Below are positions 12,242-23,310 of a stretch of 38,728 nt of DNA, piece by piece. A program made the position numbers and the translations under genes. The notes beneath the pieces are model-generated. The model saw nothing but the letters and a program-made list of their open reading frames with translations. It was not told the DNA's origin and made no database searches. How positions within the stretch are numbered: position 1 is the first letter of the stretch; each line of letters opens with the position of its first letter. Source of the DNA: Acidobacteriota bacterium (GTDB taxonomy: Bacteria; Acidobacteriota; Vicinamibacteria; Vicinamibacterales; UBA823); contig PBBF01000022.1 of the NCBI GenBank assembly GCA_002717745.1, positions 9,571 to 48,298 of the forward strand, written 5' to 3'.

Positions 12242-12257
12242 TTACAACATCTTGCGT
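12242..12257 (+). promoter_or_regulatory. NrdR-box-like site 1
   Basis: 16-bp site matching the published NrdR consensus ACACWATATATWGTGT at about 11 of 16 positions. Its core ATCTTG (12249-12254) recurs exactly 31 bp downstream in site 2. NrdR boxes normally come as such pairs, three helical turns apart, upstream of ribonucleotide reductase genes. An nrdJ gene follows. Confidence 0.6.
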
Positions 12258-12272
12258 TTGACCTAAACCTTT

Positions 12273-12288
12273 ACCCTATATCTTGTAG
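12273..12288 (+). promoter_or_regulatory. NrdR-box-like site 2
   Basis: ACCCTATATCTTGTAG matches the NrdR consensus at about 12 of 16 positions and lies 31 bp from site 1 (core 12280-12285). It ends 8 bp before the -35 hexamer of the nrdJ promoter, a position where bound NrdR could block RNA polymerase. The nrdR gene itself is not in this window. Confidence 0.65.
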
Positions 12289-12296
12289 TTTGAGGG

Positions 12297-12325
12297 TTGA
12301 CAAACCGATAAGCAGGACGCATAGT
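12297..12325 (+). promoter_or_regulatory. nrdJ sigma70-type promoter
   Basis: A perfect -35 TTGACA (12297-12302), a 17-bp spacer, and -10 CATAGT (12320-12325, four of six). The predicted transcription start is about 12331-12332, which coincides with the first base of the outer stem of the leader RNA. It lies directly behind the two NrdR-like sites. Confidence 0.6.
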
Positions 12326-12330
12326 TGACC

Positions 12331-12447
12331 GCCGTAGGATCTAACCAGGCCTGCTGAGGACGGTTCCCAGCCTCTCGGTCGGCTCTGCGAAGGGCGCACC
12401 CTCAAAAGAGAGGCGTAGAAGGAATTTTTTCAGCATCCTGCGACGGC
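12331..12447 (+). ncRNA. Structured nrdJ leader RNA (candidate riboswitch or cis-regulatory domain)
   Basis: The untranslated leader can fold into a closed domain. The outer stem P1 pairs 12331-12340 with 12435-12447: ten base pairs with one GCG bulge at 12440-12442. P2, 12353-12357 with 12430-12434, stacks directly on it. P3 pairs CCTCTC (12371-12376) with GAGAGG (12408-12413). A small hairpin AGGG-CGCA-CCCT sits at 12391-12402. TCTGCG (12384-12389) can pair with CGTAGA (12414-12419), making a pseudoknot with P3. I see no cobalamin riboswitch consensus. A motif named nrdJ has been described from metagenomes, but I cannot check whether this matches it. Pairings were found by eye; no energy or covariation was computed. 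Confidence 0.5.
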
Positions 12448-12486
12448 CCGGGACCTTGGGGTGAGGTTTCGGGCTTGATTGTTTTC
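12446..12486 (+). terminator. Terminator-like hairpin in the nrdJ leader
   Basis: 12446-12456 pairs with 12464-12474 in eleven continuous pairs (two G-U), with a 7-nt loop TGGGGTG. It is followed by the U-rich stretch TTGATTGTTTT and then the nrdJ Shine-Dalgarno at 12488. Its 5' arm shares bases 12446-12447 with P1 of the leader domain, so the two may compete. The U-tract is interrupted, so termination could be partial or conditional. Confidence 0.45.
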
Positions 12487-12498
12487 TGAGAGGTAAGC

Positions 12499-23223: not shown

Positions 23224-23310
23224 TGGTGCGAAAGGGGGGATTTGAACCCCCACAGCCTCGCGGCCACCGGATCCTAAATCCGGCGCGTCTGCCAGTTCCG
23301 CCACTTTCGC
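23224..23310 (-). tRNA. tRNA-Leu (anticodon TAG)
   Basis: An 87-nt minus-strand cloverleaf with an encoded 3' CCA (23224-23226). The acceptor stem GCGAAAG pairs with CTTTCGC and the discriminator base is A. The anticodon stem CCGGA/TCCGG encloses loop TTTAGGA with anticodon TAG at 23274-23276, reading CUA-family Leu codons. A long variable arm and the T-loop TTCAAAT are present, as expected for a class II tRNA. It stands directly before tig, so both may share a transcript. Confidence 0.96.

Follow-up and report, generated by a model that had tools for sequence, protein, structure and literature searches.

The nrdJ gene of the Vicinamibacterales, widespread Acidobacteriota of soil and water, is very likely preceded by a conserved cis-regulatory leader RNA, as judged from sequence comparison across the order. 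This leader is probably an undescribed element that lies under an NrdR promoter and acts in translational control. It was studied starting from a stretch of 38,728 nucleotides, hereafter the window (genome G000, contig C22, positions 9571-48298), whose source genome is 1.5 Mb in size and 62% complete. The relatives, retrieved via a protein search, are Acidobacteriota with Vicinamibacterales among the names; their nrdJ upstream regions were taken from whole genomes and genome contigs, oriented and listed from promoter to start. About 60 Vicinamibacterales leaders, which are kin and come mostly from metagenome bins, were thereby compared. Three features recur in them, namely a promoter (TTGACA...CATAtT), a hairpin termed H1 and a second hairpin with a GGGG loop, termed H2 (Table 1). 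A structured leader RNA between the nrdJ promoter and the ribosome-binding site had already been proposed in a sequence-only reading of the window; conservation at the level of the order bears this proposal out, with an anatomy other than the one then drawn.

Table 1. Features of the nrdJ upstream region, in positions of the window
Feature	Position	Strand	Basis or remark
NrdR box 1 (TTACAACATCTTGCGT)	12242..12257	+	closest to the consensus among sites upstream of box 2
NrdR box 2 (ACCCTATATCTTGTAG)	12273..12288	+	12 matches to the NrdR consensus
Promoter: TTGACA (12297-12302), 17 nt, CATAGT (12320-12325)	12297..12325	+	scan for sigma-70-like sites
Possible closing helix P1, 5' strand	12331..12340	+	complementary; partner 12435-12447 in the window, a more upstream site in relatives
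Extended imperfect helix carrying H1 (CAG/CUG, GCC/GGC)	12346..12387	+	minimum-energy fold of the nascent 5' part
H1: arms GAGG(AC)GG and CCUCUC, loop UUCCCAG (12364-12370, CCC at 12366-12368)	12356..12376	+	order-level covariation
Unpaired motif, order consensus about UUYACARCAAC, weakly conserved	12427..12438	+	motif search
H2: 13-14 bp, loop GGGGU (12458-12462)	12445..12475	+	fold, terminator scan; order-level swap test
Shine-Dalgarno GAGAGG	12488..12493	+	sequence; 6-nt complementarity to 12371-12376 in the window genus only
nrdJ, class II (adenosylcobalamin-dependent) ribonucleotide reductase, 930 aa	12499..15291	+	NCBIfam and Pfam matches

The nrdJ gene and the reductases of the order

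The product of nrdJ matches the NCBIfam models NF005122 (1417.7 bits) and TIGR02504 (567.4 bits) and carries the Pfam domains PF02867 and PF08471. The small subunit of the class I reductase is present in 5 of 100 related genomes and absent from the other 95, while no class III NrdD was found in 40 related genomes. NrdJ is therefore usually the sole reductase of the order, and it appears to be the only source of DNA precursors.

Promoter and NrdR boxes

Upstream of nrdJ, two NrdR boxes are found with a 15-16 bp spacer, and a nrdR gene is present in the genome. The boxes are 31 nucleotides apart from start to start in the window; in 48 of 55 relatives this distance is exactly 32, corresponding to a 16-bp spacer in most; the distance from box 2 to TTGACA is equally fixed, being 23-25 nucleotides in all 55. 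Most NrdR sites have a spacer of 15-16 bp (PMC12051234), and the window resembles the sites of the NrdR regulon in that two boxes thus spaced lie upstream of a ribonucleotide reductase gene in a genome with nrdR. It differs from them in that repression by NrdR acts at the DNA level, whereas the leader RNA comes on top. The TTGACA promoter noted in the sequence-only reading stands as a sequence feature, TTGACA-17-CATAGT being the sole sigma-70-like site within 1.1 kb, and it is retained in 57 of 66 order-level leaders; the start then placed at 12331 is a prediction, and the position of the promoter would put transcription initiation at about 12331-12333.

A covarying hairpin near the transcription start

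H1 sits about 25-45 nucleotides after the predicted start and exposes the loop UUCCCAG(C), whose motif in the order is UUCCCAGC. In 43 of 48 leaders, the CCC of this loop falls at +60 to +73 from the start of TTGACA, whereas the distance to the start codon varies from about 120 to 390 nucleotides; H1 is therefore anchored to the point of transcription initiation rather than to the start codon. Such a fixed distance from the promoter is what would be expected of a 5' stabiliser, in line with a passive structure that does not switch, in which the 5' hairpin would protect the message and the hairpin close to the ribosome-binding site would keep the start region open. However, a stabiliser has no need to keep its loop invariant or to be lost together with H2, and this explanation is decidedly improbable.

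The stem of H1 is supported by compensatory changes. When the 3' arm is fixed by the loop motif in 48 leaders, 5.06 of 6 pairs form, compared to 4.09 when arms are swapped between leaders (at most 4.40 in 2000 swaps), the choice of loop length being repeated in the null and the rows with a misplaced motif being retained. In a gap-free alignment of 24 distinct leaders, 91.7% of the cells are paired compared to 65.6% after shuffling, a percentage that leans towards structure since rows were grouped by best-pairing loop length and a few with the motif out of place were omitted. In the same alignment, double changes occupy 38 cells against 10.6 in shuffles, all six pairs have changed on both sides, and the covariation score reaches 0.754 as opposed to 0.270 +/- 0.039 for shuffled columns and 0.199 or less for slid versions of the stem. 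The second loop-length class gives a covariation of 0.563 against 0.249 in shuffles. Compensatory changes of the kind that mark a structured cis-regulatory leader RNA are thus found in the stem of H1, as they are in that of H2.

The folding of the window leader depends on the length considered. For 12341-12390, the minimum-energy fold (-19.1 kcal/mol) contains H1 within the longer imperfect helix, whereas the full-length leader is predicted to fold without H1 (-67.7 kcal/mol, against -61.4 kcal/mol with H1 enforced), pairing 12371-12376 with 12408-12413 instead. In the window genus, this 3' arm of H1 is perfectly complementary to 12408-12413 and to the Shine-Dalgarno sequence, which could reflect a genus-level alternative pairing or chance.

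A second hairpin beside the Shine-Dalgarno sequence

Across the order, H2 presents its GGGG loop directly before the Shine-Dalgarno sequence. Its flanks form 5.55 of 6 pairs, compared to 4.69 when they are swapped between leaders (z 7.4, thinned set of 33), and without any hand-picking of hairpins, a GGG lies in a predicted hairpin loop within the last 60 nucleotides of 36 of 51 leaders, where shuffling yields 5.8 and never more than 11.

In the window, the U-containing stretch TGATTGTTTT comes after H2, and the sequence-only reading had described a last hairpin with a U-rich tail. The hairpin is real and conserved at its place beside the Shine-Dalgarno sequence; its interpretation as an intrinsic terminator was rejected, a single terminator-like site having been found where 1.1 are expected by chance. 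Only the window's family carries the U-rich tail, other relatives passing from H2 to the Shine-Dalgarno sequence with no U tract, so that H2 does not generally act as a terminator. A transcription attenuator, with H2 as terminator and H1 or an alternative fold as antiterminator, would draw on the tail in the window and on the difference between nascent and full-length folds, but the chance-level site count, the restriction of the tail to one family and the position of H2 at the ribosome-binding site in nearly all leaders render it very unlikely.

Joint conservation of the two hairpins

The GGG-loop hairpin H2 occurs in 36 of 46 H1-positive leaders, thereby leaving ten without a GGG loop, and in none of 14 H1-negative leaders (Fisher p 1e-7; 0 of 6 H1-negative leaders and p 4e-4 with family f9 excluded), p-values that overstate the evidence since several of the absences are common to related leaders and amount to about six separate losses. 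The two loops are complementary (CCC/GGGG) and kept together, which suggests a contact between them. No covariation was detected between the H1 and H2 loops (4.23 observed, 4.27 swapped), because both are nearly invariant; docking is therefore what we infer from joint presence and complementarity. The spacer between the hairpins varies in length by about 150 nucleotides or more and holds few conserved bases.

Variable stems under invariant loops, hairpins kept and lost together and a variable spacing, as is often seen at hairpins recognised by proteins, would also suit a leader bound by a protein or by the ribosome, in which H1 and H2 would be two sites of one trans-acting factor, either NrdJ itself acting autogenously or an RNA-binding regulator. 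Nevertheless, no candidate protein was identified, the Rfam search gave no PyrR or similar element, and a protein site has no need of loops that are complementary to each other, so that this alternative is considered rather unlikely.

Gene and lineage specificity

The module of promoter and H1 is specific to nrdJ and to the Vicinamibacterales. Across the order, a pattern covering both matches 46 times in 100 genomes, and 42 of the matches are nrdJ leaders (assigned by contig position, save one, G045, assigned by sequence on a separate contig), while the reversed control gives 2. At the off-target sites examined (L167 and L169), only 3 of the 6 H1 pairs form. In 137 genomes of the phylum outside the order, the pattern matches 10 times and none of these resembles an nrdJ leader, as judged by eye; nor do the nrdJ leaders from outside the order show H1 at the expected place.

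Within the order, nearly all of which retains the two hairpins, both are absent from the leaders of family f9 (L043, L044, L113, L124, L131, L133, L139, L141, L144), where nrdJ is present, and f6, f11 and f12 each include individual genomes or genera without the element. NrdR boxes and promoter-like sequence are still visible in several f9 leaders. One genus (G018 and G062; leaders L041/L140 and L115) has a class I reductase and has lost H1. A general link between the loss of the leader and a class I reductase was rejected, as three other genomes (G042, G051, G066) have the class I enzyme and keep the H1 motif.

Search for known RNA families

The sole Rfam match in the window is a tRNA gene (23227-23310, minus strand). 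No family of Rfam 15 otherwise matches the window at gathering score or at E<=10, only sub-threshold chance matches being obtained, and none matches the leaders of 40 relatives or the nrdJ leaders of other phyla. Cobalamin riboswitches (RF00174 and relatives) lie in 5' leaders and make a loop-loop contact to a hairpin at the ribosome-binding site. The nrdJ leader shares with them its 5' position, a possible loop-loop contact to such a hairpin and the B12 theme; however, the cobalamin riboswitch covariance model finds no match in the window at gathering score or even at an E-value of 10, or in 40 relatives, consistent with the earlier remark that no cobalamin-riboswitch core is visible. As a regular cobalamin riboswitch was recognised elsewhere in the genome (L183, G000:C32:35469-35611, 57.7 bits), the search would have detected one here.

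An nrdJ RNA motif found in Streptomyces by Rfam search (PMC8388888), and for that reason assumed to be among the models, is likewise a bacterial candidate cis-regulatory RNA associated with nrdJ. It differs from the present element in that the window and the 40 relatives match no Rfam 15 family. No description of a two-hairpin nrdJ leader was found in the open-licence literature.

Alternative pairings and other parts of the leader

The sequence-only reading had drawn an aptamer closed by an outer stem (12331-12340/12435-12447) and containing a pseudoknot (12371-12376/12408-12413 with 12384-12389/12414-12419). All these pairs are possible in the window: the outer stem has 10 complementary base pairs with a 3-nt bulge, both 6-bp helices of the pseudoknot are complementary, and 12371-12376/12408-12413 is present in the minimum-energy fold. 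In an alignment of seven leaders of the same family, however, outer stem and pseudoknot do not rise above shuffled columns, with 74.1% of cells paired compared to 72.7% and a covariation of 0.119 compared to 0.112; their pairs are unchanged within the genus save one, and broken in L005-L008. Besides, 12371-12376 serves as the 3' arm of the covarying H1 and was rejected as a pseudoknot strand. The outer stem as drawn and the pseudoknot were rejected as well, and an aptamer of this particular structure is extremely improbable. The folding energy of the window leader, -67.7 kcal/mol, is slightly better than the -61.1 +/- 4.6 kcal/mol of shuffled sequences (z -1.45), 14 of 200 shuffles being as good; taken as a single sequence, the leader is thus unremarkable.

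A closing helix, P1, has complementary strands in many leaders and is moderately supported; the partner of its 5' strand lies further upstream in relatives than in the window. An anchored order-level test yields z 3.8 (0 of 300 shuffles) with 26 leaders and z 2.5 with 42. In the window genus, the proximal partner is degraded and the distal 12435-12447 is found instead, which is not kept outside the genus. A motif search further retrieved the unpaired motif with a log-likelihood of 103, shuffled sequences reaching 30-39.

A compact subgroup (L035, L037, L046, L149) shows helices P1 and P2 around H1, with an unpaired AAYUUCACAACAA before H2. Its members also have a conserved GGGUCGUC (GGGUCAUC in L037) between P2 and the 3' strand of P1. 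This stretch is reminiscent of one in ZTP riboswitches; Rfam gives no match for L037 or L149. A covariance model, R1, was built from three leaders of the subgroup, and about 12 of its 17 non-seed matches could be placed by position in nrdJ leaders of other families, most of them being weak (E-values 0.04-10). When the alignment was stripped of base pairs, the resulting sequence-only model found nothing beyond the compact subgroup. The R1 alignment (A5) includes off-target matches, and the whole alignment was left out of the pair counts.

Possible modes of regulation

In the proposed mechanism, NrdR, a dNTP-sensing repressor, would set the transcription of nrdJ, and the H1 loop would dock through its CCC on GGGG in the H2 loop, thereby drawing the 5' domain up to the start of translation. 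The docked state may change ribosome access or message stability, and translation would be set by the balance between docked and undocked hairpins. We regard docking onto the ribosome-binding site with such an effect as evenly balanced between true and false. Adenosylcobalamin as an ON signal, feedback by dNTPs and a protein factor are all possible; where NrdJ is the sole reductase, an adenosylcobalamin OFF switch would make little sense.

Docking overlaps with the idea of a small-molecule riboswitch of a new class, in which adenosylcobalamin (ON) or a dNTP or other nucleotide (OFF) would be the ligand and the contact between H1 and H2 would be the ligand-stabilised state, by analogy with the kissing-loop platform of cobalamin riboswitches. 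Such a riboswitch would fit the placement in a 5' UTR specific to nrdJ, the combination of a P1-P2-H1 arm with a hairpin proximal to the ribosome-binding site, the lack of a match to any known family and the absence of a class I partner from 95 of 100 genomes, whereby both the cofactor and the product of NrdJ matter. On the other hand, the few conserved bases are confined to the loops of the two hairpins and a short linker while the invariant core of known aptamers is larger, the length of the sequence separating H1 from H2 is very variable, and this promoter already has a nucleotide sensor in NrdR. A ligand riboswitch is thus unlikely, and the specific version in which adenosylcobalamin (ON) or a deoxynucleotide gates translation of the reductase through docking of the 5' hairpin on the ribosome-binding-site hairpin is quite unlikely.

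A conserved RNA element ahead of this one gene, on top of NrdR, would subject an essential enzyme to a second level of control. The two hairpins with their CCC and GGG loops provide a concrete and testable candidate for asking whether class II reductases are controlled at the RNA level by their cofactor or by their product.
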